DNA of 39,741 nucleotides from the IMG/VR virus record IMGVR_UViG_3300022696_000062, positions 1 to 39,741 of that record, one strand, 5' to 3'. The position numbers and the translations under genes are program-made. Shown piece by piece: positions 1,657 to 39,741 of the stretch. A model generated the notes under the pieces. The model was not told the origin of the DNA and ran no database searches. It saw nothing but the letters and a program-made list of their open reading frames with translations. Origin of the DNA: a virus. The first letter of the stretch is position 1. Each line of letters opens with the position of its first letter.

Positions 1657-1673
1657 AGCGCCTCCTGCCATTA

Positions 1674-1710
1674 ATTGTTCAAAATCAGTAACTTACTGAA
1701 ATTGAACAAT
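1674..1710. promoter_or_regulatory. 37-bp palindrome between the lysis and virion operons
   Basis: Two 18-bp arms around a central C at 1692: left arm 1674-1691 (attgttcaaaatcagtaa), right arm 1693-1710 (ttactgaaattgaacaat), pairing at 16 of 18 positions. A good -10 hexamer, TATACT at 1712-1717, immediately follows on the + strand, but I see no matching -35 at 17 bp. The palindrome therefore occupies the -35 region of the rightward virion promoter, as an activator or repressor site would. The amidase gene begins 18 bp to its left, so both operons could be controlled. Bases 1691-1710 recur at 35219-35238. Confidence 0.7.
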
Positions 1711-1736
1711 ATATACTACGGCCCGGGAGGTTCCCT

Positions 1737-23740: not shown

Positions 23741-24130
23741 CTATGCGCCCCTCGGTGGAACATCCGTCTCCTGTTCTGCTGGGGGGTTTTTTTCTGTCAA
23801 GTAAACTTTACAATCTTTAAGACAGCGACGAACGAACACTTCATCGTTCAAATGCCTATTCAGTGGGGACGGGTGGGGCATTCTGAAGAAGTCCTCGCGA
23901 AACTGCCGAACAAACTTCTGAGCTACCCGTCCCAGCGCGATAACCTTGTCGGCCTGCATTATCTGATCATAAGCCCAAGGGTCTGTAGTGTTACAAGTCA
24001 GGCACTCACTAATATCCACGTCCATTATGTATATCCATTCTAGTAACCGCCTGTAAGAGGGCGTCCCAACGAAAGCTACATACTTACTCTTGTTCCGACT
24101 TGATGGTCTGTCGCCTACGAACACTATCAT
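23741..24130 (-). CDS. Uracil-DNA glycosylase-superfamily-like protein
   Basis: 129 aa, last gene of the leftward early operon. FVGDRPSSRNKSKYVAFVGT at 4-23 resembles the glycosylase motif 1 region, and MPHPSPLNRHL near 87-97 matches the HPSxxN motif 2 of the UDG superfamily. VIALGRVAQKFV fits the strand between them. Usual UDGs are about 200 aa or longer, so this is a shortened version, perhaps a base-sensing protein without classical activity. No acidic catalytic residue can be confirmed. It overlaps the 71-aa gene upstream by 47 bp. Confidence 0.6.
   Translation of the reverse strand: MIVFVGDRPSSRNKSKYVAFVGTPSYRRLLEWIYIMDVDISECLTCNTTDPWAYDQIMQADKVIALGRVAQKFVRQFREDFFRMPHPSPLNRHLNDEVFVRRCLKDCKVYLTEKNPPAEQETDVPPRGA
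23748..23793 (+). terminator. Possible terminator of the virion operon
   Basis: CCCC (23748-23751) and GGGG (23781-23786) enclose an inner stem GAACA (23758-23762) / TGTTC (23772-23776), followed by seven T residues at 23787-23793. The hairpin is interrupted by internal loops, so strength is uncertain. It lies inside the 3' end of the convergent UDG-like gene, which would let it stop rightward transcription before it runs into the early block. Confidence 0.4.
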
Positions 24131-24299
24131 CGGTCGCCTCCACTACTATGTATCCCTGAGAGTTTAAAAATTTCACCACTACTTCCAACCATATTCTGCC
24201 CCCGAGTTCCCCCCGGTCGTTCCATAGTTGTTCGTAAATCCGTCTCATCACTGCCCAGTCCTGCTGACTGTAATACAGTATGTCTTTGTACAATCTCAT
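24084..24299 (-). CDS. Hypothetical protein overlapping the polymerase 3' end
   Basis: 71 aa in a different frame from the polymerase, sharing 173 bp with it. The translation (MRLYKDILYYSQQDWAVMRR, then WLEVVVKFLNSQGYIVVEAT) has normal composition with helices and a strand, whereas the polymerase tail in the same bases is low in hydrophobic residues and rich in G, T and S. Both may be made. No family recognised. It also overlaps the UDG-like gene by 47 bp, so three frames are tightly packed here. Confidence 0.5.
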   Translation of the reverse strand: MRLYKDILYYSQQDWAVMRRIYEQLWNDRGELGGRIWLEVVVKFLNSQGYIVVEATDDSVRRRQTIKSEQE

Positions 24300-26427
24300 C
24301 TAACTTTCCTTTGTTTTTCTTAAGTTTGTAATTCGGAAACCTTTTGATGTCGAGGATTGGGGAGAGGATTTTAACCGTATCGAATAGTTTTTGGTATAGT
24401 TTATCCGAGTCATACTCCCCGTCGAACATCTCTGCAAGCGCAAGCTCGTCCTTTTTTCGAAAGAATACATTTATTTTGTCTCCCTCTTGGACTCGGCGTC
24501 CCGATCTATGAATTGCATCGAGTATTCTTTGCTCATTAGTACGTGCCGGATGTAGGACTTTTTTGGTGACAGTTTTTTTACTGCACCATTGGCGAATATC
24601 AGAATTAATAGTGGCAATGTTACCGACAAGAGTGTTATAAAGTAGATCAAGATCGCCATCATTTCCGTTAAGTATAATATGGATTGCATTTTTAATAAAC
24701 TCCTTTAGGGCGGGTTCCTTCATTGTGGCTTTGAGCGCCGAACCCTTAATAGTTAATTTACCGTCGTCTCGACGCATGACATAATTCTTAGCTTTTACCA
24801 CGATAAAATCGGTAAAGAACCCGTCGTCCTCCCACACGATACCTTTAGGAAACTCAGAGTTTAGAAGCTCAATAAACGAGTAGTGTCCCGCCTTATCAAG
24901 TGAAAGGTCGTCCCTAGTATAAGATATGGAGTCAGTGTCCCCGTTAACGATCGTAAGACCGTGCTTCTCGGCAAGCTCTACCGCCTTTTCTACGACACCC
25001 CGACCAAGTTTTGTCACAAGGGCCGCCTTCATCGGGGAGTTAAAGTTAAGCCCCGGCGCTCCCATGAATCCGTATGCCGAGTTAATAATAATCTTCTGGG
25101 CCTGCTCCACGTCCCGATACCCGCGCTCTCCCGTCTCGTTGGCAAGTCGTTTATTCTCTAGTCGCTCCTTGGTGAATATGTCAACCATCTTTAGGAAATA
25201 CGCCTTGGGGTCTTTGTCCGGGTCGAAAATTCGGTGCTGTAGTATTAGGGACGGGTAGAGTGACGCCACGTCAGCCTTGCCTACATTGTTGTAGCGACCG
25301 GGATTACCAAAACTAATCGCCCCCTGGTAATGTTTTGCGTCCGAAGCTTGGGGTATGCTGTGCCCCTCGGAAAGATAAGACCTAATCAGAAACGAGTTAA
25401 TCTGACTACCAGACGCCCCGTTGACGATCTGCTGAAAAGTTTTTGGAATAGACTGGGTGTAATAGAAAAACGATGGGGCCATGAGATCGAATAGTGCCAG
25501 CGAATCATCCGCATCGTCCACGCAGTAACGCTTAATCTTCTCCATCTCGTCAGGGTCTTGATAGTTATCCCGGATACTACCGGCATCGTAAAACTCTCGA
25601 CCTTCCCGAGTGAGTCCCTCGTGGTCAATGATCGCCTTGAGGCCATAGCTAGGGTAATTGCGGCCCACGTCGTACTTGATCGATAGGAAAAAAGTATCGA
25701 TGACTTCCCGACCGGGAATCGTAATGTTTTGATAGTCATAGGACTGGCTCCCGTCTTTGCGGAACTGTGAAACATATTTAGAAAATAATGCGGCTGAACC
25801 GTCTCGACCTAGCAAAAGGTCGTCGTCGAGGCAGTGGCGGAGATAGGGTAGGTCAAAGCCCAGGATATTGTGACCGAGGATTATAGAGGGGTTGACTACA
25901 CATACCCAGTCTACCCAAGCCCGAATCATCTCCTTATCGGAATCATATTGGTCCACCGAGAAGAGTCGACGTTGAAGGGAGTGGCCCAGCCGCACAGTGT
26001 TACTAATTAATATTACCTTAGAGTTATCATCGTGAGTAAGGCCCGTGGTCTCGATGTCAAAAGACAAGACCGACACGTCCTCAAGTTCCATGTTATTATA
26101 GTATGTGACGCCGGAGCGAATCATGTACATCTCGGCTGAGTTGTAAGCTACATAGTGGTCAACTTTCTGAGCGCGATAGGACCATCTCGCTTGATTGTAG
26201 GACTGCATGGTGTGATACTTCTTGGCGAACTTATAGTGTAGCTCCCCGTCCAACCGAATGCACTTGCCGTCGATGTCGTAAGGAAAAAGAATCCAACCCT
26301 CAAACGGGCGGCTATCCATCTGAATGCCCTTATTGTTCTCCGTATAAATGTCAACCGTTTCGTTATTGACGGTAACATTAACGACTCTCTTGGTGTCGTC
26401 CTGTCCGTACACAAACTTACCATTCAT
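24127..26427 (-). CDS. DNA polymerase, family B
   Basis: 766 aa replicative polymerase with proofreading. Exonuclease motifs are DIETTGL at 124-130, GHNILGFDLPYL at 185-196 and YCVDDADDSL at 301-310. Polymerase motif A is DVASLYPSLI at 386-395, motif B KIIINSAYGF at 445-454 and motif C GDTDS at 496-500; then a K-G-SALK segment. All catalytic acids are present. Shorter than T4 gp43 and without a TPR insertion like phi29, so primed from the neighbouring primase more likely than from a terminal protein. TAGGAGA precedes the ATG. The last 60 residues overlap another gene and may be dispensable. Confidence 0.95.
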   Translation of the reverse strand: MNGKFVYGQDDTKRVVNVTVNNETVDIYTENNKGIQMDSRPFEGWILFPYDIDGKCIRLDGELHYKFAKKYHTMQSYNQARWSYRAQKVDHYVAYNSAEMYMIRSGVTYYNNMELEDVSVLSFDIETTGLTHDDNSKVILISNTVRLGHSLQRRLFSVDQYDSDKEMIRAWVDWVCVVNPSIILGHNILGFDLPYLRHCLDDDLLLGRDGSAALFSKYVSQFRKDGSQSYDYQNITIPGREVIDTFFLSIKYDVGRNYPSYGLKAIIDHEGLTREGREFYDAGSIRDNYQDPDEMEKIKRYCVDDADDSLALFDLMAPSFFYYTQSIPKTFQQIVNGASGSQINSFLIRSYLSEGHSIPQASDAKHYQGAISFGNPGRYNNVGKADVASLYPSLILQHRIFDPDKDPKAYFLKMVDIFTKERLENKRLANETGERGYRDVEQAQKIIINSAYGFMGAPGLNFNSPMKAALVTKLGRGVVEKAVELAEKHGLTIVNGDTDSISYTRDDLSLDKAGHYSFIELLNSEFPKGIVWEDDGFFTDFIVVKAKNYVMRRDDGKLTIKGSALKATMKEPALKEFIKNAIHIILNGNDGDLDLLYNTLVGNIATINSDIRQWCSKKTVTKKVLHPARTNEQRILDAIHRSGRRVQEGDKINVFFRKKDELALAEMFDGEYDSDKLYQKLFDTVKILSPILDIKRFPNYKLKKNKGKLDEIVQRHTVLQSAGLGSDETDLRTTMERPGGTRGQNMVGSSGEIFKLSGIHSSGGDR

Positions 26428-27970
26428 TATTACTATCTCCTAAAGTATAGGTTTCAGTTTCTCTGTCAAATAATAGTTCTTGATCGATTAGTGGGGACCC
26501 GCCGCGCTGACTAGTCTCTACAAACCGTTTCTGTCCTTCGCGTCTGAAGATCATAGCACAGTCAACCGCCCCGTGGGTAGCCGTTGAGCCGAGGATTGAC
26601 CCCGTCCCGACTCCGCCCTTATTGGCGTGGTGAATCATGCATATATGCGCCTCCGACTCACGGGCCAACTCCCTCAATTGGGATAGCGCCTCGTTGATCG
26701 GGCCATAGTCGTTTACGTCTTTGATCTGTGCGAATAGTATCATGGTGTCTATAATAATAAGACTTGGGCGCTCTGTCAAGACATATTCTCGTAAATCTTC
26801 AACTACAGTAGGACCGAATACGCCGCCGATGTGGAGCTTGATCGGGTCCTCTGGTGTCATTCCGAGACGTTGAAATTGCTCGAATAACAATTCGGGCTGT
26901 TCCTCAAGTGCCAGATATAGCACCCTTCCTGCCTGCACGTCACGTCCAAGGAACTGCTCTCCGCGACATACACTCTTGGCCAACTGCCGGGTAAGGGTTG
27001 ACTTTCCCGATTTCGGGGGGCCTGACAAAAGCGAAAGTCCTCCGACCGATAGTAGCCCGTCCACAAGCCAATTGATTTTAGGCATGTCTTTAAACATCTG
27101 GTCAAGCGACGTAAAGTTGAACGTAGTCCGCTCCGTAGACTTACATCGGTCAGGCCCAAGTCGTTCGCAATAATCATGTAGCCAGGTGTCCTCGTTACTG
27201 CAAAGGTAAACTCCGCCTTGCCAATTCTCTCCATATATCACCTCAATAACTTCTCGCCACAGCGACTCTTTGTCGTAATCTTCGTTACGGTTCTCGTATG
27301 CGTCTTTACAAATATAGTATGCCTGCGACTTTGTATAGTTAAGCTTGCGAAGGTTACTAGCTAGTGCCATCATCGCCGCATTGCCCTCGCCCTTATCAAA
27401 CTGTCCGTTAGCAATTGCCCATACACAGTTGGACCAGCCGTGCGGTTTCTTATTAAAATCGACGCCTTCCTTGGCTGTCGCAACAGAGGGGGATTCCTGC
27501 TTAATAACAGGGTCGATAAGCTTTCCGTTAGGATTTGAGGAGTAAACATTCTGGCTCGGGTAGTACATCCTTGCTGGGTCCGAGCATTGCTTATCGGCTT
27601 GGGGATATTGTCTAATAAGTTTAGTGACGGTGTTTCGGTAGACTTTCCCGCTAGTAATTGGCGAGCTTAGGAATAGTATTACTCGAAATCTGTCTTGGAC
27701 CTGGCCGCCTTTACTTACTTGGTGGGACCGGGTGGGCGCGATGATGTGCTTATGCTCGGCGAACATCTCTCGGGCCTTATCGATAGATAGCCCCCCGTCA
27801 AAGTCGAGGGCTACCAGTTCTGAATGAATAAAATTATCGTTGGTGCGGTGAGCGTCCTTGAAGACACCACACGAGTATGTACGTTCACAAATCACGTCCA
27901 ACAGCGCGTTAAACCCTTGCACTTCCTGTACAGGGAACCGTGCGTTGTTCTCACCGACCGATACTAACAT
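26417..27970 (-). CDS. Primase-helicase (AEP primase fused to RecA-like helicase)
   Basis: 517 aa. The N-terminal domain has ELVALDFDGG with the D-h-D pair at 56-58, RSHQ at 81-84 and DRFRVIL at 93-99, the pattern of archaeo-eukaryotic primases. Residues about 170-245 (GEGNAAMMALASNLRKLNY) look like a PriCT-type linker domain. The C-terminal part is a RepA/AAA_25-type ATPase with Walker A GPPKSGKST at 317-325 and Walker B LIIIDT at 404-409. It should unwind DNA and lay primers for the family B polymerase, whose gene follows with an 11-bp overlap. Confidence 0.88.
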   Translation of the reverse strand: MLVSVGENNARFPVQEVQGFNALLDVICERTYSCGVFKDAHRTNDNFIHSELVALDFDGGLSIDKAREMFAEHKHIIAPTRSHQVSKGGQVQDRFRVILFLSSPITSGKVYRNTVTKLIRQYPQADKQCSDPARMYYPSQNVYSSNPNGKLIDPVIKQESPSVATAKEGVDFNKKPHGWSNCVWAIANGQFDKGEGNAAMMALASNLRKLNYTKSQAYYICKDAYENRNEDYDKESLWREVIEVIYGENWQGGVYLCSNEDTWLHDYCERLGPDRCKSTERTTFNFTSLDQMFKDMPKINWLVDGLLSVGGLSLLSGPPKSGKSTLTRQLAKSVCRGEQFLGRDVQAGRVLYLALEEQPELLFEQFQRLGMTPEDPIKLHIGGVFGPTVVEDLREYVLTERPSLIIIDTMILFAQIKDVNDYGPINEALSQLRELARESEAHICMIHHANKGGVGTGSILGSTATHGAVDCAMIFRREGQKRFVETSQRGGSPLIDQELLFDRETETYTLGDSNNEW

Positions 27971-30305: not shown

Positions 30306-30306
30306 A

Positions 30307-31071: not shown

Positions 31072-31564
31072 TTTGTTTCCTTTGTTCTCTGTTATATTCT
31101 TTTCGCATTTCATTCATCTTTACATACATACGCGCTAGGATGGCGGGCCACTCTTTAGACCAGTCGGCGTGGGATCTGCGAAGCTCATTCATTGCTTGAA
31201 CTATAATTGTCTGGCTCGCCATTTCGTAGCCCCCGATTTTAAGGGCGTCTCTCCACTCCCACTCGTTAGAGGCATCTTCCATAAACTCTTGATCGTCATC
31301 GGAGTATTCTAGAGTTTTGGTCGCTTCGGCCACCTCGAATATGCCCCGGTATAGTTGGTTATACCTGCGGTAACCCTCGATTAACATATATCCTTCAGTC
31401 TGGATGCGGTCCTCTTCCGGTATCTCTGACATCAAGTTGGCGTAATACTCATGGTAAAACTGCTCTACCCACTCACGCTCACTATCAGACAATTCATCCT
31501 CGTACTCACGGTAGTCCATCTTTTCATAAAGCAATTCGCTTATTTTCTGTTTTTTCTTCGCCAT
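31058..31564 (-). CDS. Hypothetical acidic helical protein
   Basis: 168 aa from ATG 31564, with GGAAGAG upstream. Strongly helical and charged (YREYEDELSDSEREWVEQFY, then EFMEDASNEWEWRDALKIGGYE), with W-rich segments and a basic end (EYNREQRKQNEKA). The charge pattern suggests a soluble partner protein for a replication or host protein. I recognise no family. It overlaps the HExxH gene by 25 bp and the exonuclease gene by 14 bp. Confidence 0.6.
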   Translation of the reverse strand: MAKKKQKISELLYEKMDYREYEDELSDSEREWVEQFYHEYYANLMSEIPEEDRIQTEGYMLIEGYRRYNQLYRGIFEVAEATKTLEYSDDDQEFMEDASNEWEWRDALKIGGYEMASQTIIVQAMNELRRSHADWSKEWPAILARMYVKMNEMRKEYNREQRKQNEKA

Positions 31565-32064
31565 TGTCTCTTCCACTCTTTTTGTTCTTTATTTGTTGGG
31601 TAGTCACCTGTCTGATAGTATCGCAGGTAAACCCACCTATCCAGAGCCATCTCATATTCCAGTTTCCATTTTGGAATATTCAACCTCAACTCCTTATATA
31701 TAACAGCCATGTAATCAATTGCCTTACATTCGCTGTTATAAATATGACGCCGAAGATACTTGGGAGTGGGTTTACTGACCCTAGGCCGGCGCTCCCACTC
31801 TCTTTCCCAAGCTTTATTAAGTAATATAGAATTTCCTTCTTGCATGATATGAACCCAGTCAAGATGATGCCCTAACTCGTGCAGCATTATGAAAATCTTA
31901 CAAGTGTATGACTGACCGGGCCATTCATATAATTCTATAGTTTGCGATTCATGATCGTATGTTCCGCCGGGGTCGTTCCGTTTGTAACGCTTGCGCACGA
32001 CATTGATGCCGAGACCTTTGGCGTACTTAATTACTCTATCGAACTCTTCCTGGCGGATTCCCAT
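31540..32064 (-). CDS. HExxH metallopeptidase-like protein
   Basis: 174 aa. IMLHELGHHLDWVH has the zincin motif with H62, E63 and H66; a downstream SECKAIDYMAV (E112) can supply the third zinc ligand in the style of gluzincins or ImmA/IrrE-like peptidases. Such phage enzymes may cut host regulators or process phage proteins, but no substrate can be read from sequence. Its ATG overlaps the preceding stop (TAATG). The basic C-terminus (WKRQWRRKNRK) could contact nucleic acid. This is one of two HELGH proteins in this genome. Confidence 0.75.
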   Translation of the reverse strand: MGIRQEEFDRVIKYAKGLGINVVRKRYKRNDPGGTYDHESQTIELYEWPGQSYTCKIFIMLHELGHHLDWVHIMQEGNSILLNKAWEREWERRPRVSKPTPKYLRRHIYNSECKAIDYMAVIYKELRLNIPKWKLEYEMALDRWVYLRYYQTGDYPTNKEQKEWKRQWRRKNRK

Positions 32065-32336
32065 TACGATTCCTGTTTCTTCGCAGTTACATTAGCAAGA
32101 ATAAATTCTGGAATTCTGGATTTACGAACTTCGGCTTGCGAGGCATCCAGCTTTCCGGCGGCCACTAGACCATCTACTTCATCTTTGGGGGCGTTAAAGA
32201 ATAAGATATCTGTCCCCAAAACTTGAATTAATTGAGCAGCAATCGCCGCGCCTTCAGAACCCGCTTGTACGCCGGCTCCCAATCGTAGATAACGAGTAGT
32301 ACCGCTTTTTGATACTTGGTATTGACCGATCTTCAT
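32064..32336 (-). CDS. Hypothetical protein
   Basis: 90 aa with GGAG five bases before the ATG. Starts with beta (KIGQYQVSKSGTTRYLRLG), then an alanine/glycine-rich helical part (GVQAGSEGAAIAAQLIQVLG) and a helix rich in A, D and E. No family recognised. The next gene starts on its stop codon, so they are probably co-translated. Confidence 0.6.
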   Translation of the reverse strand: MKIGQYQVSKSGTTRYLRLGAGVQAGSEGAAIAAQLIQVLGTDILFFNAPKDEVDGLVAAGKLDASQAEVRKSRIPEFILANVTAKKQES

Positions 32337-32346
32337 TTATACTCCT

Positions 32347-32607
32347 TTAGTGTATGGTGTCATGTCCACCGTTATTAATAAATTCTTCTTCTTCATACAT
32401 AGCTTGACCCATTGCATAACCGACAACGTACATCACAAGCTCATCGTATTTCAACTTATCTAATATCTCGCCTTCCATAAGCAGGTCTCGAAGCATGTAC
32501 CCTTCCTGTCCGAAATTTAGAGCGTCAACGAACCACTCTTCGGCATCGGTCTTAGGCTCCTCAGTTCCCTGCATTAACGCCGTTAGTCTCTGAATGTCGA
32601 TCTTCAC
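32347..32607 (-). CDS. Hypothetical acidic protein
   Basis: 86 aa from GTG 32607, preceded by GGAAG. Very acidic and helical (EEPKTDAEEWFVDALNFGQEG, by key residues E, D and W; then MLRDLLMEGEILDKLKYDELV), ending in EEEEFINNGGHD. The charge suggests a possible DNA-mimic or inhibitor, but small acidic phage proteins are common and unassigned. Overlaps the thioredoxin-like gene 3' end by 47 bp. Confidence 0.55.
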   Translation of the reverse strand: MKIDIQRLTALMQGTEEPKTDAEEWFVDALNFGQEGYMLRDLLMEGEILDKLKYDELVMYVVGYAMGQAMYEEEEFINNGGHDTIH

Positions 32608-33007
32608 TGGTCACTTCCAATTCTAAAAACATTAAATATAACTGTCTTAATTCTTCTGCATTTGGCGTGCCAAGTGCTATAGTAACTGGGACGTAGTCTA
32701 TGAAAAACATCATGTTAGGAATTTGGTCACTTGTTATATTTAAGACACTAACAACATATGGATGATTACTTAAGTTAATAAATCTTACTGCCACACGGTC
32801 ATCATACACTGACGATAAATGGCGAAGTCTACTGTATGTTATTTGGCATGGGGCCCCGCACTCGTTATCGTACATATAGACGATAACCTTACCGTTTCGT
32901 AATATGTTTTGCATTAGTTGACTAAATTGAGCCTGCTCGTCTGGGGTGCTACTCCACACAGTAAGCCCAATCATTGTCCCCATTACTAAAGTAATTATGT
33001 ATTTCAT
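32561..33007 (-). CDS. Exported or membrane-anchored thioredoxin-like protein (CGAPC)
   Basis: 148 aa. An N-terminal hydrophobic segment (MKYIITLVMGTMIGLTVW) acts as a signal anchor or signal peptide. Then comes a thioredoxin-like pattern: strand VIVYMYDNEC, CGAPC at 50-54 (C-x3-C rather than CxxC), strand VAVRFINLS and the IPNMMFFID strand whose proline fits the cis-Pro of the fold. The protein would act in the periplasm, as a disulphide exchange or redox-sensing protein. The C-x3-C spacing makes standard oxidoreductase activity uncertain. Start at 33007 overlaps the previous stop. Confidence 0.7.
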   Translation of the reverse strand: MKYIITLVMGTMIGLTVWSSTPDEQAQFSQLMQNILRNGKVIVYMYDNECGAPCQITYSRLRHLSSVYDDRVAVRFINLSNHPYVVSVLNITSDQIPNMMFFIDYVPVTIALGTPNAEELRQLYLMFLELEVTSEDRHSETNGVNAGN

Positions 33008-33255
33008 TCGTTCTCCCATACTCCGAACTTGTTAATAATTCTACAACCCTTTCTAGGAATTGCTGTCACTTTTTTACTTCCAGGATAGCTTACAAAAAAA
33101 TGTTTATGCCCAACGCCCTTTAATAGGTAAACCGCGGCTTTGGTAGCAGTGACTCCCTTACTTGTAAACTTAGTTGGGCATATAACCCACGACAAGTTCG
33201 GGGTAGCCCCCGCTGTAGATGGTAAAAACATTACTAAAAACAATAATTTACTCAT
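33004..33255 (-). CDS. Small secreted protein
   Basis: 83 aa with a clear signal peptide (MSKLLFLVMFLPSTAGA, probable cleavage after AGA). The mature part, about 65 aa, is basic, with two cysteines (C in VICPTK and in RKGCRI) that could form a disulphide in the periplasm. It is the gene directly upstream of the thioredoxin-like gene and overlaps it (ATGA), so the cysteines and the redox partner may be linked. No family recognised. Confidence 0.6.
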   Translation of the reverse strand: MSKLLFLVMFLPSTAGATPNLSWVICPTKFTSKGVTATKAAVYLLKGVGHKHFFVSYPGSKKVTAIPRKGCRIINKFGVWENE

Positions 33256-33515
33256 TTACCACTCCTAGTTTTCCAGTTTCTATAATACTTAAACGCCATC
33301 TGCCTTACTCGCTCTCTAGTTACCCTATGGAGTTTAGCAACTCGATCAAGATCTTTAATCTTAATGTAGTCAAAGACCATTATAAGACCCTTTGTTCTTC
33401 TCAGTTCCTTTTCAGAGACCTTAGACATTACATAATAATACAACAATTCTTCTGGATGCGGAATAGATTTGTATTTTCTCCAATACCAGAACTTAAGTCT
33501 ATCTAGCAATGTCAT
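33252..33515 (-). CDS. Sigma-70 region 4-like helix-turn-helix protein
   Basis: 87 aa. Residues about 48-80 (DYIKIKDLDRVAKLHRVTRERVRQM) match the sigma region 4 helix-turn-helix, whose typical wording is 'the regulator finds the gene using V(S/T)RERVRQIE', followed here by a basic end FKYYRNWK. No region 2 is present, so it is not a full sigma factor. Expected role: binding -35-like DNA or the RNA polymerase flap to redirect transcription from early to late genes. It could be the partner of the 20-bp element at 1691-1710 and 35219-35238; that is inference. Confidence 0.72.
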   Translation of the reverse strand: MTLLDRLKFWYWRKYKSIPHPEELLYYYVMSKVSEKELRRTKGLIMVFDYIKIKDLDRVAKLHRVTRERVRQMAFKYYRNWKTRSGK

Positions 33516-33565
33516 CCATCACCTCGCTTGAATGATTCGTAGTCTTTGTTTTGGTCGTCTGTCAT
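33512..33565 (-). CDS. Tiny coupled open frame (17 aa)
   Basis: ATG overlaps the stop of the gene upstream and its own stop overlaps the start of the sigma-like gene (ATGA at both ends), so ribosomes could move through it by coupling. The predicted peptide, MTDDQNKDYESFKRGDG, is polar and unlikely to fold. It also carries the GAGGTGATGG region next to the following ATG. Probably a translation-coupling leader, if translated at all. Confidence 0.3.
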   Translation of the reverse strand: MTDDQNKDYESFKRGDG

Positions 33566-33852
33566 GATTGCTCCTTGATTTTGGTAAGTGCTTTTATGGC
33601 TTCCTCATCACAATCACACCCTAACGTGTATATTTCACAGTCGTCCGTTTTGTTTTTGCTGATTATAGCCAACGCCTCAACCTCCACGGCTAAGTCAGCT
33701 TTAAGCTTCTCCACCTCCGCGCGCTTGGCATCATAAGCCGACTTTTCGATCATTTTAATCGAATCCTCAAAAAGTTTGTTGTGCGAATAAACGCCGGACT
33801 CGTATTTATTTGGGTCACTTATCCATACCTCTCTTGGCTCTTTATCACTCAC
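33562..33852 (-). CDS. Hypothetical coiled-coil protein
   Basis: 96 aa, ATG overlapping the pentapeptide gene stop. Residues about 33-68 are a heptad-like helix (MIEKSAYDAKRAEVEKLKA), followed by a Cys- and Asp-rich loop (DDCEIYTLGCDCDEEA) that may bind a metal, then a final helix. No family recognised. Confidence 0.6.
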   Translation of the reverse strand: MSDKEPREVWISDPNKYESGVYSHNKLFEDSIKMIEKSAYDAKRAEVEKLKADLAVEVEALAIISKNKTDDCEIYTLGCDCDEEAIKALTKIKEQS

Positions 33853-34379
33853 TTATCCTCCCGATCTATAGTATATGCGTGTTTAATACACATTTCAATA
33901 AATTGACCATACATCTGAATTTGTAAATCAGTATAGCCGTTTTCTTTGCCAATATCTTCGAAACAACTTGCCCACTCGTCTAATGTTTTATCTATACAAC
34001 CAATAATTAGACGATGACCCGTGCAATATGCTTGGTGTCTTTGATATCGAAAAATTAATAAGTTAGCCCCACCCAAGTTAGTCCCATGCAAGTTAGCACC
34101 ACGCAAGTTAGCCTCACGCAAGTTAGTCCCATGCAAGTTAGCACCACGCAAGTTAGCCTCACGCAAGTCAGCATCACTCAAGTCAGCCTTACACAAGTAC
34201 GCCCCACTCAAGTCAGCATCACTCAAGTCAGCCCCGTGCAAGTTAGCCTTACACAAGCCAGCCTCGCGCAAGTCAGCATCACTCAAGTCAGCCCCACTCA
34301 AGTTAGCCTTTTTACCACCTTTACCGTCTAACCAATCTTTATGGTCTTTTAGTATTTTATCCAGTTCTTTTTTAGTCAT
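33849..34379 (-). CDS. Pentapeptide-repeat protein
   Basis: 176 aa from ATG 34379, which overlaps the previous stop. About 17 repeats of the A(D/N)LXX type occupy residues about 25-110 (ANLSGADLSDADLREAG and so on), forming a right-handed quadrilateral beta helix. The C-terminal 65 residues (TGHRLIIGCIDKTLDEWASCF) are the domain that commonly follows such repeats in phage proteins. Some pentapeptide proteins mimic DNA and bind gyrase; here that is only a possibility. The DNA itself is a run of nearly identical 15-bp units. Confidence 0.88.
   Translation of the reverse strand: MTKKELDKILKDHKDWLDGKGGKKANLSGADLSDADLREAGLCKANLHGADLSDADLSGAYLCKADLSDADLREANLRGANLHGTNLREANLRGANLHGTNLGGANLLIFRYQRHQAYCTGHRLIIGCIDKTLDEWASCFEDIGKENGYTDLQIQMYGQFIEMCIKHAYTIDREDK
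34075..34310. repeat. 15-bp tandem DNA repeats inside the pentapeptide gene
   Basis: On the + strand the units are of the form CAAGTTAGCMYYRYG or CAAGTCAGC plus six bases, repeated about 15 times. They code for pentapeptide repeats on the other strand. The near identity, including third codon positions, suggests recent expansion or homogenisation by recombination. Confidence 0.8.
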
Positions 34380-34657
34380 TACCACACCGTCCTGATTTCA
34401 AGCACAGCCTTAGACAATTTGGTTTTAGGCTTAATACTAATTATCTCATCAATTTGCGGTAAAATGCCCATGCGTCTAGTCATCGCATCAATCTGTTTAT
34501 TGGTAAGCGGAAAATCGCTAACAATCCTGTACATACAGTGCTTGCTATCATGAGACCAGGCTACCATGTTCCAAGTGCCCGAATTCATAACAAAAGCGTA
34601 CCTTCTTTTTTTCTCAATCATACGCTCGTTATACATGCACCAATCATGCCAACTCAT
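34379..34657 (-). CDS. Hypothetical protein
   Basis: 92 aa, ATG overlapping the lipoprotein stop (ATGA). Short, basic N-terminal part (YNERMIEKKRRYAFVMNSGT), a region with W and H (WNMVAWSHDSKHCMYRIVSD), and a C-terminus with helix then strand. No family recognised. Encoded in the same coupled chain as the lipoprotein and the pentapeptide protein. Confidence 0.6.
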   Translation of the reverse strand: MSWHDWCMYNERMIEKKRRYAFVMNSGTWNMVAWSHDSKHCMYRIVSDFPLTNKQIDAMTRRMGILPQIDEIISIKPKTKLSKAVLEIRTVW

Positions 34658-34965
34658 AATACAACCTCGCCGTTTATAATACTAAAGGGACATTGTTGGC
34701 TATCGGTTGTTACATAATTGCCGTCTTCAATAATTACAAGACCGATGTTGTTATACCACGCCATCAAAGAACCGTCGTTAAGCTCCACAAGAATCTCATC
34801 GGGACCAGGACCGTCGCCGCAAGGGTCAATCGTGCGACTAATAAAAAAGCCCGGAGGGGGCTCAATAATAGTATTGTAATAGTCTCCCGATACAACAGGA
34901 ACTCTGCCGTCCCCACAACCCGTTAGTAATAATAGAGCGATCGTGCTAAAAAATAATACCTTCAT
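34654..34965 (-). CDS. Phage lipoprotein
   Basis: 103 aa from ATG 34965, with AGGAGG upstream and ATGA overlap with the preceding gene. MKVLFFSTIALLLLTGC is a signal peptide with lipobox LTGC, so the mature protein would be lipid-anchored at Cys17. The residue after Cys is Gly, so outer-membrane sorting is expected under the standard +2 rule. The mature part has conserved-looking strands (EILVELNDGSLMAWYNNIGL) and two more cysteines. Early phage lipoproteins often block receptors (superinfection exclusion); this role is inferred from topology only. Confidence 0.75.
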   Translation of the reverse strand: MKVLFFSTIALLLLTGCGDGRVPVVSGDYYNTIIEPPPGFFISRTIDPCGDGPGPDEILVELNDGSLMAWYNNIGLVIIEDGNYVTTDSQQCPFSIINGEVVL

Positions 34966-35132
34966 ATTGCCTCCTGTGTTACGATCCCTTGGGACCCTGT
35001 AATAAGTAGCCAAAGTGCCTGAATACCATCGGGCCCGTCCGCATAAAGGGCGCTACCGATACGGTTACCGCTACGGTCCGCTACGGTAAGCATCCAGCGC
35101 CCGTCGTCTGTTTGTGTAATTTCGTAAACCAT
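34962..35132 (-). CDS. Small beta protein, first gene of the early operon
   Basis: 56 aa, start at ATG 35132 with GGAGGTG six bases upstream. The sequence MVYEITQTDDGRWMLTVADR, then SALYADGPDGIQALWLLITG, reads as a compact beta domain with a terminal helix. It is the promoter-proximal gene of the long leftward operon, placed 20 bp from the -10 at 35153, so it should be made earliest and in high amount. No family recognised. Confidence 0.7.
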   Translation of the reverse strand: MVYEITQTDDGRWMLTVADRSGNRIGSALYADGPDGIQALWLLITGSQGIVTQEAI

Positions 35133-35152
35133 CTTTCACCTCCAATATGTCT

Positions 35153-35181
35153 AGGTTACTAAATCTGGGGGGCTATGTCAA
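35153..35181 (-). promoter_or_regulatory. Probable leftward early promoter
   Basis: Reading leftward, -35 TTGACA (35181-35176) is exact, the spacer is 17 bp, and -10 is TAACCT (35158-35153), a partial match. It lies just upstream of the 35132 start. The 20-bp element at 35219-35238 is about 38 bp upstream of the -35, a usual place for an activator. Confidence 0.65.
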
Positions 35182-35218
35182 CATATTTCTACAATTTTAT
35201 TTCTACCTAATTTCAACC

Positions 35219-35238
35219 ACTTACTGAAATTGAACAAT
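35219..35238 (+). promoter_or_regulatory. Second copy of the 20-bp virion/lysis control element
   Basis: ACTTACTGAAATTGAACAAT, identical to 1691-1710. The other arm of the palindrome seen there is missing; instead TTTCA lies on the left (35211), giving a shorter AATTTCA/TGAAATT dyad. It is followed by AT-rich DNA. It probably binds the same regulator. Confidence 0.65.
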
Positions 35239-35281
35239 TAAATACATATATTAATTTAATACCATTGAATCTGTATACAAC

Positions 35282-35299
35282 ATACTATTTAAATAGTAT
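35282..35299. repeat. Perfect 18-bp palindrome
   Basis: ATACTATTTAAATAGTAT is fully self-complementary (9-bp arms, no spacer), inside the AT-rich part of the candidate origin. Could be a dimeric protein site or cruciform. Confidence 0.75.
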
Positions 35300-35307
35300 A
35301 TCAGTAA

Positions 35308-35361
35308 ATTAATTAATATTTACTATACAGATTACTCTACTACTAGTAAATATTAATTAAT
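35308..35361. repeat. 18-bp perfect inverted repeat, 18-nt loop
   Basis: Arms 35308-35325 (attaattaatatttacta) and 35344-35361 are exact reverse complements around 18 bases. All A/T except one C/G pair, so it melts easily. Typical of a DNA unwinding element or a cruciform near an origin. No U-rich tail, so not a terminator. Confidence 0.75.
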
Positions 35362-35581
35362 ACAAACGGTCCTTCAAAAAAATCGACGGGCGGGCTTACT
35401 CCACCCAATTTCCCAAAGATGTTTCAAAAAGATGTTTTAAAAATATTCTACAAATCCTTCCCAGCACGTTCGTGCCGCAATTTGCGTCACCTTGACTAAT
35501 TTGTAGTCGGTCTTTGGGCTCGGTCATTATTAGTCGGAATTATAGGGAAGGGGGCTCTACTCCATCTCATATCCAAGCCGG

Positions 35582-35621
35582 AATCTCATATTGGGACACT
35601 ATAATGTCCCGATTTGAGACA
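35582..35621. promoter_or_regulatory. Paired 17-bp operator-like sites facing each other
   Basis: Two members of the TGTMTCA-N3-TGAKACA family in opposite orientation: 35582-35598 (AATCTCATATTGGGACA) and 35605-35621 (TGTCCCGATTTGAGACA), separated by six bases. Together they make a larger dyad, 13 of 15 pairs matching. Likely site for a dimer of dimers. Confidence 0.6.
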
Positions 35622-35932
35622 AACCCATCGGGGGGACCACCTCCACACTACCCCTTCAGAGGCCCGTATCGCCCCGTCACGAGGTCCTACCAGTCCACCC
35701 ATACCTAGGTATACCCCCAGTCAATACGTCCAACACGGAGCATTTTCGTAAGCCGTAACATGATGAGACAGCAAGAGTCCCCCGTTATAGGCCCTGACAG
35801 GCTCACCACGATGTTTATATCCTCAACCCACACTAGACCCTAGGTCTGGATATAAGTCCCCGTATAGGCCCGATATGAGCGCCTCACGTCCAATTCTACA
35901 TAACTTATTGAAAATACGTACCACCACCTTTC

Positions 35933-35949
35933 TGTCTCAATATGACAAA
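35933..35949. promoter_or_regulatory. 17-bp operator-like site
   Basis: TGTCTCAATATGACAAA, family TGTMTCA-N3-TGAKACA; left half exact, right half weaker. A further half site TGAGACA lies at 35764-35770. Confidence 0.5.
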
Positions 35950-36035
35950 GTTCTTGCATGGGTATAGGATAGCGTTTAGACGTACCAATAGCCGCCCATA
36001 TACACCGAAACCCGACCACTATACCAGTATTCGGG

Positions 36036-36107
36036 CTATATGGTTAATAGTTCTAGGCAGTCCCCCGAGTATACCCAAGGGACTGGAAGAGCTATTAACG
36101 GCTATAT
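36036..36107. ncRNA. Large imperfect hairpin, possible structured RNA or DNA element
   Basis: GTTAATAG (36043-36050) pairs with CTATTAAC (36092-36099), and inside it CAGTCCC (36058-36064) pairs with GGGACTG (36079-36085), around a 14-nt loop. Outer flanks CTATAT and ATATAG extend the symmetry less exactly. Two co-linear stems separated by internal loops are more than expected by chance. It lies after the 42-aa gene (leftward) and could be a transcript end, an RNA, or part of the origin. Confidence 0.4.
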
Positions 36108-36141
36108 TCTAAAGCTTTATCGTAGATCAGTCGATTTAACT

Positions 36142-36270
36142 TTATGGACTGGTTGACTCGACTTGCCAGCCTTGGTTTTCGAACGTGTCTAGAATCGATC
36201 GTGTATTTATGAAACCGTACGTTTCGCGGTCGGTTAGTGCTTTAGTTTGATCAATTGGATTGATAGACAT
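36142..36270 (-). CDS. Short protein, possibly a truncated DUF932-like N-terminus
   Basis: 42 aa with AAAGGGGG five bases before the ATG. MSINPIDQTKALTDRETYGF, then INTRSILDTFENQGWQVEST. The pattern 'Y-F-I-x-T-x-x-I/V-L-D-x-F/L-x-x-x-G-W' resembles the start of DUF932 phage/plasmid proteins, which are usually about 250-350 aa, so the remainder is missing. Just after the stop, the +1 frame reads on for some residues, but no long continuation exists. It is either a decayed remnant or a genuine small protein. Last gene of its operon. Confidence 0.55.
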   Translation of the reverse strand: MSINPIDQTKALTDRETYGFINTRSILDTFENQGWQVESTSP

Positions 36271-36281
36271 ATAGTCCCCCT

Positions 36282-36773
36282 TTATTGGTTAACAATTGTT
36301 AATTTAGTTTCAATAGTCTCCGGTATCTTTAAAGACTTTAGTCCCGTCGCAAGTTTAGCAAGTTCTAGACCTGTATACCAGTCTGAACTATAACCGTCGC
36401 TTGACACTTCGACCTGTCCCTTTAAATAATGCTTTAGGACTATAAGACATGCGACCACGACCGTGTCGTAGGGCTTTCGTGCCGTTTTACAGAATTCGAA
36501 ACTACTATTTTCCGAGTAGTGCTCTCTTAAAACAAAGTCTTCGTGTCCTAATTCTTTAGTGCCGTTAAAGTTTAGGCCGCCGTATTTTCCGGGCTTCGTG
36601 TGAGCACTATAGCCTGAAAGTCTATCTGGATGCTTTAAGTCTATCATTTTCATTCTATCATTATAGAACTTGACTATTTGCTGGCATTTAACTATAGCCT
36701 TTTGATAGTCGCTTTCAACTCTACTACTGTTACCGTGACTGGTTTTAAATCTTATATAGTGTGTATGGCCCAT
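36282..36773 (-). CDS. Conserved-type phage protein, unknown function
   Basis: 163 aa. The start MGHTHYIRFKTSHGNSSRVE, then a region with FNGTKELGHEDFVL and FCKTARKPYDTVVVACLIVLKH, is a layout I associate with a widespread phage protein family beginning MGHTHYW-like and of unknown function. Mixed alpha/beta with several His, no classical catalytic motif. AAAGGGGGACTAT precedes the ATG, the same leader as the gene to its left. Confidence is for a real gene. Confidence 0.7.
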   Translation of the reverse strand: MGHTHYIRFKTSHGNSSRVESDYQKAIVKCQQIVKFYNDRMKMIDLKHPDRLSGYSAHTKPGKYGGLNFNGTKELGHEDFVLREHYSENSSFEFCKTARKPYDTVVVACLIVLKHYLKGQVEVSSDGYSSDWYTGLELAKLATGLKSLKIPETIETKLTIVNQ

Positions 36774-36784
36774 ATAGTCCCCCT

Positions 36785-36973
36785 TTACGCCGCTTTGGAC
36801 GTGTTAATAGTTTTTTTCACGAAACCGCTTTCATCATGTTTAGCTTTCCCTTTAGCTTTCAATGCAACAATATACCCGCCACGTTTATCTAGAAAGCGCA
36901 AGTCGTGGCTGTCCCCGTTATAAGCGCATAATAAGACCGCCCGAGGATAACCCCCGAGCGGTCCGATATAAGC
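36785..36973 (-). CDS. Coding-like in-frame extension after the metallopeptidase stop
   Basis: The frame of the HELGH gene stays open for 62 more codons after its TAA (36974-36976), up to TAA 36785. The stretch CAYNGDSHDLRFLDKRGGYI, then VALKAKGKAKHDESGFVKKT, looks like real protein. No ATG or GTG starts it; an internal TTG would give about 38 aa. A hairpin (36935-36963) lies between the TAA and this stretch. It could be made by stop-codon readthrough, by a non-standard start, or be a remnant. Translation not established. Confidence 0.4.
   Translation of the reverse strand, partial: AYIGPLGGYPRAVLLCAYNGDSHDLRFLDKRGGYIVALKAKGKAKHDESGFVKKTINTSKAA
36935..36963 (-). terminator. GC-rich hairpin after the HELGH gene
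   Basis: GACCGCCCGAGG (36935-36946) pairs imperfectly with the segment ending in CGAGCGGTC at 36963, about 10 of 12 pairs, around a short loop. No T-run on the leftward strand, so a poor intrinsic terminator. It starts 11 bp after the HELGH stop and may instead affect readthrough or RNA stability. Confidence 0.4.
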
Positions 36974-37639
36974 TTATCGAGTTGCCTTAAGTCTCGCCCG
37001 TCGATTGATGCGAGCGTCGATCGAATCGGACTCGGTCCACCCAACGCTCGGGTTATAAACCAACTCGCCGTTATCGATCATTTGGAGCCTATCAAGACAC
37101 CCTTTGTCGAGGTTTCTTGATAACCGAATAAGCTCACGGTCCCCAACGATAACCCCGTAACGCTCTCCGGTCTCAACGCAAGTCCGTGGTTTATCCTTAA
37201 GGGGCAGTCCTGTAGAGTAGGCCGGTAGACCTAAGCGTCGACGAATTTTATTTTCCATGGCCATTGGTAAAATCTCAAAAAGAGACGATTTTTGTTTCAT
37301 ATACCCGTACTCTGATATAACATAACCGAATTGAGAATCCATCTCGTTTTGATACATCTTAAGCGGTGCATTGGATAAGAATAAGTGTCCCAATTCATGA
37401 ACCGCCGCGTCCGGGTTAGGCTCGAACTCTAGATGACCGGTCCCCCAATCGGGTTTTTTGATAAACTTGCCGGACTTATTCAACTTGCCGGGCGTGACTC
37501 GGGCCGATAAACCGAATCGATCACCTAGATAATTGATAATATGATTTATATGTTTTTGTCTCATATTGGAACGACTTGAGGGGCTCGACTTGGAACCCCA
37601 CACCTGTTTCATTCTGATACGTTTATTTTTGCTCGCCAT
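36974..37639 (-). CDS. HExxH metallopeptidase-like protein (second)
   Basis: 221 aa with GAGGGGG before the ATG. A very basic N-terminus (MASKNKRIRMKQVWGSK), then AAVHELGHLFLSN with H81, E82 and H85. A following helix (SSLFEILPMAMENKIRRRLG) has acidic residues that could give the third zinc ligand. Not similar to the other HELGH protein beyond this motif. Putative zincin; substrate unknown. C-terminal part ends in a basic helix (DARINRRARLKATR). The frame continues as coding-like after its stop. Confidence 0.7.
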   Translation of the reverse strand: MASKNKRIRMKQVWGSKSSPSSRSNMRQKHINHIINYLGDRFGLSARVTPGKLNKSGKFIKKPDWGTGHLEFEPNPDAAVHELGHLFLSNAPLKMYQNEMDSQFGYVISEYGYMKQKSSLFEILPMAMENKIRRRLGLPAYSTGLPLKDKPRTCVETGERYGVIVGDRELIRLSRNLDKGCLDRLQMIDNGELVYNPSVGWTESDSIDARINRRARLKATR

Positions 37640-37640
37640 G

Positions 37641-38027
37641 TTACACCCCCTCGGCTACATAATAACGGCCCGTTGCCGGGTCCAACGTCCATGCGTCTAA
37701 CGCGTCGGCCCGGTCCCTAGACACCTCGACCCACTGCCCAAGCTCGGTCCTTGAACCTGAATCGATATATTCTAAGAACGCAGACCGATCGGGCCTTAAG
37801 AATAAAATTGACTCTTGATAAGCCGCCCGAGCGCATAATAACGCCCGTCTATAATCCTCTAGTGACTTGGTTATAATAAGATAACTGTTTTCAGTCTCAC
37901 CCTTATAAGACCCTATAAGCGCTTTAAAATGATCAATGCCGTACGATCTAATAAACTTATAATCATCCTTATAGGTCCCTTGATTCACTGCTATAATAAC
38001 GCATGGTGGAAAGTTTAATTGTCTCAT
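37641..38027 (-). CDS. Hypothetical protein
   Basis: 128 aa with AAGGGGG seven bases before the ATG. Alpha/beta with a beta start (LNFPPCVIIAVNQGTYKDD), helices (YRRALLCARAAYQESILFL) and a C-terminal segment resembling small domains with DAWTLDPATGRYYVAEGV. No family recognised. Followed within 1 bp by the HELGH gene. Confidence 0.65.
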   Translation of the reverse strand: MRQLNFPPCVIIAVNQGTYKDDYKFIRSYGIDHFKALIGSYKGETENSYLIITKSLEDYRRALLCARAAYQESILFLRPDRSAFLEYIDSGSRTELGQWVEVSRDRADALDAWTLDPATGRYYVAEGV

Positions 38028-38043
38028 AATGATACCCCCTTAA

Positions 38044-38376
38044 TTAACGGTCATAATATAAGTCATGATAATAATCGGCCATGGCAGATAATCGATCGGC
38101 CTCTAGGTCTAGGTAATCAGCGCAATCGGTCGCATAATCCAGCATGGGATCTAAAATCTTCGCCTCAATTTCCCCGTCTAGGTCTTGACCCGTTACAACG
38201 TAGCCGATCGACCCCTCGGGCTCTGCATAATAACCCGGGTCCTCAAACGTATAATAAAACGATAAGATAACCCACACCTCGCCGTTGTCTGGGTTATTAG
38301 AATCATACAGCCGACCCTTAACATACGTTCGATCAACGATTGATAACTCATCAATAATCCAATTATTTTTCACCAT
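38044..38376 (-). CDS. Hypothetical acidic protein
   Basis: 110 aa with GAGGGGG six bases before the ATG. Starts with beta strands (WIIDELSIVDRTYVKGRLYD, EVWVILSFYYTFEDPGYYA) and ends in a helix with many D, Y and L (LDLEADRLSAMADYYHDLYY). Strongly acidic. No family recognised. Transcribed from the 38655 gene downward. Confidence 0.65.
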   Translation of the reverse strand: MVKNNWIIDELSIVDRTYVKGRLYDSNNPDNGEVWVILSFYYTFEDPGYYAEPEGSIGYVVTGQDLDGEIEAKILDPMLDYATDCADYLDLEADRLSAMADYYHDLYYDR

Positions 38377-38449
38377 TATGCACCCCCTCTATAATTAAAT
38401 TAATATAACATAACATTATAAACATGGATAACGCGTATATTATAATCAT
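38363..38449 (-). CDS. 28-aa hydrophobic miniprotein
   Basis: ATG 38449 overlaps the stop of the preceding gene (ATGA) and has AAGGGGG four bases upstream. Predicted MIIIYALSMFIMLCYINLII, then EGVHNGEK: one transmembrane segment with a short polar tail. Its 3' end overlaps the start of the next gene by 14 bp and contains that gene's ribosome-binding site. Short but carries the same signals as its neighbours. Any function unknown. Confidence 0.5.
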   Translation of the reverse strand: MIIIYALSMFIMLCYINLIIEGVHNGEK

Positions 38450-38655
38450 AACGCCCCCTTAATTATGCCTACCTCAACTTGTGACAGTTCAGTTGCGCTG
38501 ATTCGGCTAGCCTTAAGAACCTTAACGTCCCGAACATGTACAGTCTTGCCTTGCGCCCGGTGGTATTGAACGATTAGATCAGCGATTTCATTTTCAACGT
38601 GTAACTGAACTTCGTATGTATCGTTTTGTAGGTCTTGGATTAGTATGTTCTTCAT
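38446..38655 (-). CDS. Hypothetical protein, first gene of the AGGGGG cassette
   Basis: 69 aa with AAGGGGG five bases before the ATG. Helix-rich and acidic start (MKNILIQDLQNDTYEVQLHVENEI), then YHRAQGKTVHVRDVKVLKASRI. No recognised motif. Being the first gene after the 38.7-38.9 kb control region, it should be the earliest expressed in its cassette. Confidence 0.65.
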   Translation of the reverse strand: MKNILIQDLQNDTYEVQLHVENEIADLIVQYHRAQGKTVHVRDVKVLKASRISATELSQVEVGIIKGAL

Positions 38656-38727
38656 TTAGTCCCCCTTGCTTACATATATCTTATCGGCGCGTCGCCCAAA
38701 AACTTAAGTATTTATTTTATTTTTTTT

Positions 38728-38744
38728 TGTATCATATTGATACA
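38728..38744. promoter_or_regulatory. 17-bp operator-like site, perfect palindrome
   Basis: TGTATCATATTGATACA, 7-bp arms that are exact reverse complements around TAT: the best member of the TGTMTCA-N3-TGAKACA family. Lies in the leader between possible leftward promoter and the 38655 start. Confidence 0.7.
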
Positions 38745-38822
38745 TATGCGGCCCGTCCTATATATATATGGGCAGAATTCAGGAGCGATATAGGGCAGGT
38801 GGGTGTATCGTGTGAGAGGTAC

Positions 38823-38875
38823 TGTATCATCTTGAGATTGTCAACCCTTTTCTTCCCAACTCTCACATTGATACA
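38823..38875. promoter_or_regulatory. Two 17-bp operator-like sites and a leftward -35
   Basis: 38823-38839 (TGTATCATCTTGAGATT) and 38859-38875 (ACTCTCACATTGATACA) belong to the family. The first abuts a leftward TTGACA at 38844-38839, which has only a weak -10 at 17 bp (TACCTC), so the promoter may need an activator or be a decoy. A related sequence with a 2-bp spacer is at 38804-38819. Confidence 0.55.
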
Positions 38876-38916
38876 GCCCCGTCCCCCCTGCAAATAGTGT
38901 GCCAACTCCCCTATAT

Positions 38917-38982
38917 ATGCAAGAATCGTGCCAGTATCACAATGAGTCGTATCAAATTGAGAATGAATGCAAGAATCGTACC
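38917..38982. repeat. 16-bp direct repeat around the operator pair
   Basis: ATGCAAGAATCGTGCC at 38917-38932 and ATGCAAGAATCGTACC at 38967-38982: 15 of 16 identical, spaced 50 bp. Could be iteron-like binding sites. Confidence 0.6.
38933..38964. promoter_or_regulatory. Two overlapping 17-bp operator-like sites
   Basis: 38933-38949 (AGTATCACAATGAGTCG) and 38948-38964 (CGTATCAAATTGAGAAT) share two bases, placing successive proteins about 15 bp apart. They lie between two copies of ATGCAAGAATCGTRCC. Confidence 0.55.
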
Positions 38983-39094
38983 GTAAACGTGTGGTGGATT
39001 GGCATGGAAATTGAGGTAGGGCGGCTCTTTCTACTCAAAATCCAAAATCCCACGGTCGAGAGGGGGGCTAATTTTAAAAAAATCGAAAAATCGC

Positions 39095-39123
39095 TTGACT
39101 GGGGCCTAGAAGTGGCCTATAGT
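39095..39123 (+). promoter_or_regulatory. Strong sigma-70 promoter, rightward
   Basis: -35 TTGACT (39095-39100), spacer exactly 17 bp, -10 TATAGT (39118-39123): 5 of 6 and 5 of 6 consensus matches, with an A-rich segment upstream like an UP element. The spacer holds GGCC-TAGAAGT-GGCC, a short dyad that could be an operator. Drives 39265 and 39431 genes and points at the lysis block. Confidence 0.85.
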
Positions 39124-39264
39124 GGGGTCTGAGAGGCCGCATATACGGTCAGACGGGGGGCCAAAGCCACGCAGGTCCCGAGTCGTTTCAATAGTATGCG
39201 TGGCGGATACACGATTACACGCGTTGAGAGGCTGATTTATGGCGATTAAAAAAGGATATTACTG

Positions 39265-39429
39265 ATGTGGACAGCGATAGTGAAAGACCCCGACTTAGGT
39301 TGGTCTACTCTCGGGCCTAGGTTTTTTGATACCATATTAGAGGCCCAGGAATTCGGGAGAAAGTACGCCCGAGGAAGGCGTATGGAAGTGGTGTGTAAAG
39401 CGTTTGTTAATATAATGAGAGAGGTGTGA
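39265..39429 (+). CDS. Small early protein
   Basis: 54 aa starting MWTAIVKDPDLGWSTLGPRF, with AAGGA eight bases upstream. A basic middle (FGRKYARGRRMEVV) and an amphipathic end. Transcribed from the strong promoter 140 bp upstream, so likely immediate-early. No family recognised; host-takeover or regulatory function is a possibility. Confidence 0.6.
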   Translation: MWTAIVKDPDLGWSTLGPRFFDTILEAQEFGRKYARGRRMEVVCKAFVNIMREV

Positions 39430-39430
39430 T

Positions 39431-39628
39431 ATGACAAAAACTGGAGAAATTGTATTTGATGAAGAGGGCAATTTCGTGGAAATTAACGGAAATATCCCGG
39501 ATCGTCGGGCTTTTGAGTTTGTTGAGTTGTCTGAGTATTATAAGGCAATCGATCATCTTCAGATTCGGCTAAATGAAATCGGCGAAAGGGTAAAGGAAGC
39601 CGAGGAAATAATTAAAACTTTAATATAA
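39431..39628 (+). CDS. Small acidic early protein
   Basis: 65 aa starting one base after the preceding stop, probably co-transcribed. A beta-hairpin-like N-terminus (GEIVFDEEGNFVEINGNIPD) and an amphipathic helix (YKAIDHLQIRLNEIGERVKE, then AEEIIKTLI). Acidic; may dimerise by its helix. No family recognised. Ends 8 bp before the convergent spanin-like gene. Confidence 0.65.
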   Translation: MTKTGEIVFDEEGNFVEINGNIPDRRAFEFVELSEYYKAIDHLQIRLNEIGERVKEAEEIIKTLI

Positions 39629-39636
39629 AGGATACG

Positions 39637-39741
39637 TTAAAATGAATACGAAACTAGCGCCCCTACCGTCCCATCAGTTCGATAGTACAGACCGGCGTAA
39701 AGATCTAGCACGATTCTACGTTGGACTTGGACAGAATACTC
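39637..39741 (-). CDS. 3' end of the spanin-like gene (same gene as 1-390)
   Basis: Continuation of the leftward gene that starts at 390. Only 39637-39642 adds new sequence (the last sense codon and TAA); 39643-39741 repeats bases 1-99. It converges with the small rightward gene ending at 39628, with only 8 bp between the two stop codons and no visible terminator between them. Confidence 0.7.
   Translation of the reverse strand, partial: EYSVQVQRRIVLDLYAGLYYRTDGTVGALVSYSF
39643..39741. repeat. Terminal direct repeat (copy of 1-99)
   Basis: Identical to the first 99 bases; see that entry. Confidence 0.9.

Follow-up and report, generated by a model that had tools for sequence, protein, structure and literature searches.

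The primary replication origin of phage T7 is intergenic and places a phage promoter beside AT-rich DNA; T7 relies on a single-subunit RNA polymerase of its own. In phage T4, oriF and oriG are R-loop origins, in which a phage-class promoter is accompanied by an A+T-rich element within about 100 bp (PMC3016281). No sequence needs to be shared between the T4 origins, and they use MotA middle promoters, which are shut off late (PMC3016281). Other routes by which transcription can open an origin are given for ColE1 and lambda (PMC5043065). For phage ICP1, the published description places the most abundant transcript in a roughly 1-kb space without orfs and reports an orf-less, non-coding transcript of ~800 nt (PMC7567579).

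The DNA analysed here (39,741 nt, IMG/VR record IMGVR_UViG_3300022696_000062; hereafter the window) is the 39.6-kb genome of a tailed phage. Its ends overlap by 99 bp, and we therefore handled it as a complete genome map of 39,642 bp, either circular or circularly permuted. Among the matches listed, the nearest cultured relatives by TerL are Jersey and Kagunavirus siphophages (about 33% identity), which we take to belong to the subfamily Guernseyvirinae, and the phage collection contained no DNA match to positions 24000–39741 at megablast sensitivity. Leftward genes from 35132 to 24127 encode a PDDEXK exonuclease, an Erf-type annealing protein, an AAA_25 helicase and polymerase B, and from the terminase onward the genes run rightward. 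The palindromes studied here lie between the head of this leftward replication operon and an ORF-free kilobase (Table 1). A sequence-only reading had proposed them as the best origin candidate, in the longest non-coding DNA of a genome with a primase-helicase and a family B polymerase. Both proteins are indeed encoded, the former as the AAA_25 helicase with its primase-like N-terminus, and the palindromes adjoin an ORF-free region that is the longest of the early half of the genome in our own ORF survey and has no equal in the rest of the genome according to the ORF list. Further proteins were noted in the surroundings. ORF 37641–38027 encodes an S-adenosylmethionine lyase family protein (Pfam E 7e-12), which is probably anti-restriction. 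The early operon contains a pentapeptide-repeat protein (33849–34385) with homologues in L006, L039 and L045 (G027). HELGH-type zinc-protease-like motifs were seen by eye in the proteins of 36974–37639 and 31540–32064, which have no significant family.

Table 1. Positions of the features discussed, in window coordinates.
Feature	Position	Strand	Basis or remark
Divergent lysozyme/terminase promoter region, near-perfect dyad; source of the duplicated sequence	1672..1718		
Family B DNA polymerase	24127..26427	-	family searches of encoded proteins
AAA_25 helicase, primase-like N-terminus	26417..27970	-	family searches of encoded proteins
First ORF of the leftward early/replication operon (56 aa, no family; ribosome site GGAGGTG)	34962..35132	-	
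ORF-free region upstream of the replication operon	35133..36141		ORF survey
Putative leftward early promoter, TTGACA-17 nt-TAACCT	35153..35181	-	read from sequence
Duplicate of the late (lysozyme/terminase) promoter sequence, oriented towards the palindromes	35219..35245	+	sequence matching
AT-rich (83%) stretch holding the palindromes; candidate unwinding element	35239..35365		
10-bp inverted repeat around the palindrome, left arm	35268..35277	+	
Perfect 18-bp palindrome	35282..35299		
Perfect 18-bp inverted repeat, left arm	35308..35325	+	
10-bp inverted repeat around the palindrome, right arm	35324..35333	-	
Perfect 18-bp inverted repeat, right arm	35344..35361	-	
Hairpin with T run resembling an intrinsic terminator, for leftward transcription	35378..35407	-	weak: 7 found vs 6.1 expected in the scanned region
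Second ORF-free (divergent) region; GC-skew minimum, most operator motifs; rival origin site	38656..39264		

The perfect 18-bp palindrome and the perfect 18-bp inverted repeat (spacer 18 nt) are present exactly where the sequence-only reading had placed them. An additional perfect 10-bp inverted repeat flanks the palindrome and overlaps the left arm of the 18-bp repeat; due to these overlapping coordinates, the two inverted repeats are mutually exclusive. In the whole window, neither a further inverted repeat with arms of at least 10 bp at a spacer of at most 40 nor a second perfect palindrome of 18 bp or more was found. Among 2000 dinucleotide shuffles of 35146–35372, none contained an arm of at least 18 bp (the longest had 15), and 16 contained a palindrome of the 18-bp size. 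In 30 whole-genome shuffles, the top five palindrome half-sites measured 9–11 and the top five arms 11–14. Based on these local and whole-genome results, we conclude that the 18-bp inverted repeat is beyond chance, while the palindrome alone is not beyond chance genome-wide. As single-stranded DNA, 35239–35365 folds more strongly than its shuffles (z −3.3 and −3.5 for the two strands). Inverted repeats are also found at 36011–36266, where both strands fold beyond shuffles (z −3.2 and −3.4). When viral contigs were searched for exact occurrences of the inverted-repeat pair, no hit was obtained, with records very near the window possibly left out; in the phage collection, the region matched only weakly, to 4 unrelated records.

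Palindromic AT-rich DNA within a non-coding stretch would also suit an attachment site, a hairpin-telomere site or another recombination site, an explanation that we regard as very improbable. The window contains no tyrosine integrase (the control was positive in 14 of 14 genomes), and an attachment site was rejected on this ground. Likewise, no telomere resolvase was matched in the window in a search whose control was positive in 2 of 14 genomes, and the hairpin-telomere site was dropped for want of that match.

New here is the sequence next to the palindromes. A window search gave the first sign of a duplication, as 35219–35238 repeats 1691–1710, which is located within the divergent lysozyme/terminase intergenic region. 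Judged by sequence matching, 35219–35245 duplicates the putative lysozyme/terminase (late) promoter of this phage and is the sole other match to it in the window genome. Its score of 41 compares with maxima of 27 in 8 shuffled genomes and of 31 in a null of 300 AT-matched random window segments searched against the phage's own control region, and was reached in 0 of 200 local shuffles. The −10 stretch reads TAAATAC in the copy and TATATAC in the late promoter. Owing to the dyad symmetry of the late site, an alignment of the copy in the opposite direction is possible too (score 36), so that its direction in the window was assigned from the higher-scoring match and from the relatives. The copy is probably an active promoter, facing rightward in the window. 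At a distance of 38 bp lies the putative leftward promoter, which matches the consensus at 6/6 and 3/6 positions, so that its −10 is weak, and stays below the threshold of the promoter scan; by eye, sigma70-type hexamers occur at the equivalent place in relatives.

Similar to T4 oriF and oriG, the window has a putative phage-class promoter and then AT-rich DNA within about 100 bp: the 100 bp directly downstream of the copy are 82% AT and contain all of the genome's long inverted repeats. In contrast to the T4 origins, the putative promoter is of the lysozyme and terminase class, the AT-rich part carries strong inverted repeats, and the site is a candidate origin. The promoter copy also adjoins intergenic AT-rich DNA in the manner of the T7 primary origin, but, unlike in T7, no single-subunit RNA polymerase gene was matched in the window, in a search whose control was silent too. 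T4 oriF and oriG share this arrangement of promoter and AT-rich DNA, so that a transcription-activated R-loop origin of the oriF kind is the best single reading; we favour it tentatively, as the likeliest role of the site though with less than an even chance. The site would be a divergent control region, in which the sigma70-type promoter would fire leftward into the replication operon and the late-class copy would face right, towards the AT-rich palindromes and then the ORF-free kilobase. RNA started at the phage-class promoter would form an R-loop across the AT-rich stretch, which may breathe or extrude hairpins, and the phage helicase-primase and polymerase B would be served either by the 3′ end of this RNA or by the strand left exposed.

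What stands of the earlier proposal of an origin is the position of the site, which belongs to the replication operon's control region and directly follows a duplicated promoter sequence. Skew, iterons, DnaA boxes, an initiator and conservation do not speak for it. There is no direct-repeat (iteron) array in 35239–35365 and no IHF consensus at the palindrome site; the window has a single exact DnaA box, at 7776, and none occurs at up to 1 mismatch in 35000–36300. No initiator family was detected among the proteins scanned; many small ORFs have no family. Cumulative GC skew, which had been suggested as a check, has its minimum at 38,940 and its maximum at 23,892, and 35,300 is unremarkable. These extremes are the divergence (38,940) and convergence (23,892) points of the gene blocks. 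At four-fold sites of the coding strand, rightward genes gave −0.18 and −0.24, while the three leftward bins gave −0.03, −0.03 and +0.15; the first of these bins (24–29.4 kb) also includes three leftward genes at 0.3–1.7 kb. As no origin-like switch is visible at four-fold degenerate sites, the skew follows gene orientation and locates no origin; it neither supports nor refutes the 35.3-kb site.

Alternatively, the origin may lie elsewhere, most likely in 38656–39264, with the palindromes at 35.3 kb having another role or none, which appears unlikely to us but deserves consideration. This region separates leftward from rightward early genes, contains a T-rich tract and includes the cumulative skew minimum. 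In addition, the motif GTMTCANNNTGAKAC occurs in 8 copies in the window at up to 1 mismatch, against a shuffle mean of 0.25, and five of these are clustered at 38,729–38,963. However, skew tracks gene orientation, with no switch of the four-fold sites at 38.94 kb, and one GTMTCANNNTGAKAC copy, at 38021, extends over the start codon of ORF 37641–38027, which runs leftward, so that a repressor operator suits the motif better than iterons. All 8 copies of the dyad lie in 35.75–38.97 kb, within a cluster noted at 35583–38963, the motif is absent from 35239–35365 at up to 2 mismatches, and exact copies are found in the ORF-free regions of two related genomes (G024 and G027). We regard GTMTCANNNTGAKAC as a repressor-type operator.

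Relatives from IMG/VR share 52–63% identity in TerL. Polymerase B relatives were not obtained from a first scan and were found by alignment; one of them, G030, found via polymerase B, is more distant (TerL 42%). Four genomes with TerL and polymerase B span the region (G007, G024, G027 and G029), with G024 and G027 open there at contig ends. G019 is open over most of the region, and G026 and the contig L008 reach part of it. The ORF-free tract upstream of the replication operon measures 0.9–1.4 kb in four genomes (the window, G007 and, across their contig ends, G024 and G027) and is shorter in G029 (310 nt) and G030 (547 nt). AT-rich DNA is located at the promoter end of the tract in the window, G007, G024 and G027, and long palindromes were found in the window only, with none conserved in the relatives examined. 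The contig ends of G027 (L051, L053) overlap imperfectly within the ORF-free region, which suggests population variation or a repeat there.

The lysozyme/terminase intergenic region was extracted from 20 contigs (the window and 19 loci), and each contig was searched for a second copy. This region differs strongly between genomes, and many examples show, by eye, inverted arms beside a TATATA-like stretch. Strong second copies were detected in 3 of the 20 contigs, namely the window, G007 (score 52, shuffled maximum 30) and L008 at 98–127 (score 55, shuffled maximum 27), and in the latter two, which are distant relatives, the letters differ from those of the window. In G007, one other match exceeds shuffles, a low-complexity T-rich sequence elsewhere on the opposite strand (score 35). 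The best match in G024 is at the expected place and strand, scoring 28 against 26–30 in genome shuffles (not significant) and equalled in 0 of 200 local shuffles; in G027, the match is weak, with 11 matching bases only, equalled in 6 of 200 local shuffles. No match stood out in the remaining 15 contigs, most of which are short and probably do not reach the region. Lack of a copy in G029 and G026, both within this search, and in G030, tested separately, counts against generality. All placed copies are on the same strand in the orientation of the window, and in the window, G007, G024 and G027 the copy points away from the replication operon; the L008 contig stops shortly after the start of the leftward gene. 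The placed copies share only the divergent promoter region and, in three of four relatives, the ORF-free tract. A promoter which diverges between genomes, yet is kept twice within a genome, would be expected for a class read by a phage-encoded factor. G007 encodes a sigma region 2 protein; in the window, a sigma region 4 in ORF 33252–33515 looked likely by eye and was rejected, as neither Pfam nor PHROG gave a match.

DNA after the copy is 54–70% AT in G007, G024, G027 (weak copy) and L008, which makes the pairing of this promoter with AT-rich DNA special to the window phage. Since the downstream DNA is not AT-rich in these four, plain regulation or a long non-coding RNA is almost as likely as the R-loop origin. 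In that case, the site would be a divergent early/late promoter region and no origin, transcription from the rightward late-class promoter would cover the ORF-free kilobase with a long leader or a non-coding RNA, and the palindromes would be regulator sites or 5′-end hairpins; we regard this as a serious possibility. The promoter copy faces an ORF-free region in the window and G007, and more weakly in G024 and G027, and the length of this region in all four agrees with such an RNA. RNA of either strand from 35371–35626 and 36011–36266 folds beyond shuffles (z −2.7 to −3.4). A precedent exists in the ICP1 non-coding transcript (PMC7567579), and, similar to ICP1 and the GOLLD and ROOL RNAs, the window has ~1 kb without ORFs, here downstream of a putative late-class promoter. 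Unlike those RNAs, however, the region has no match in Rfam, GOLLD/ROOL-type large phage RNAs included; together with uneven folding scores, this led us to reject a large structured RNA. Its middle tiles fold at chance level, tiles from G007 and G024 are unremarkable, both strands have similar folding scores, as for inverted DNA repeats, and blastn found no sequence common to this region and that of G007. In L008, the copy precedes an ORF (DUF559), like an ordinary mRNA promoter. Positions 175–1488 of that contig hold DUF559 and HNH endonuclease ORFs downstream of the copy, separated and followed by non-coding DNA; these may be homing genes that invaded an ORF-free tract.

A broader version would combine both roles. 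Many genomes of the group may keep a second, fast-diverging late promoter by the replication operon, feeding 0.6–1.3 kb of ORF-free DNA, as a coupled switch in which non-coding RNA made by the late machinery primes or regulates replication, and the palindromes would be the RNA-initiation element of the window phage. We consider this generalization rather improbable. Overall, the palindromes are real and are located in a control region of the virus beside a second copy of the putative promoter of the packaging genes, a layout which could start DNA copying. If this is true, late transcription would be linked to replication in a lineage without a close cultured relative in the searched collection, and control regions and candidate origins of uncultured phages could be located from sequence alone, by searching each genome for a second copy of its own terminase promoter.
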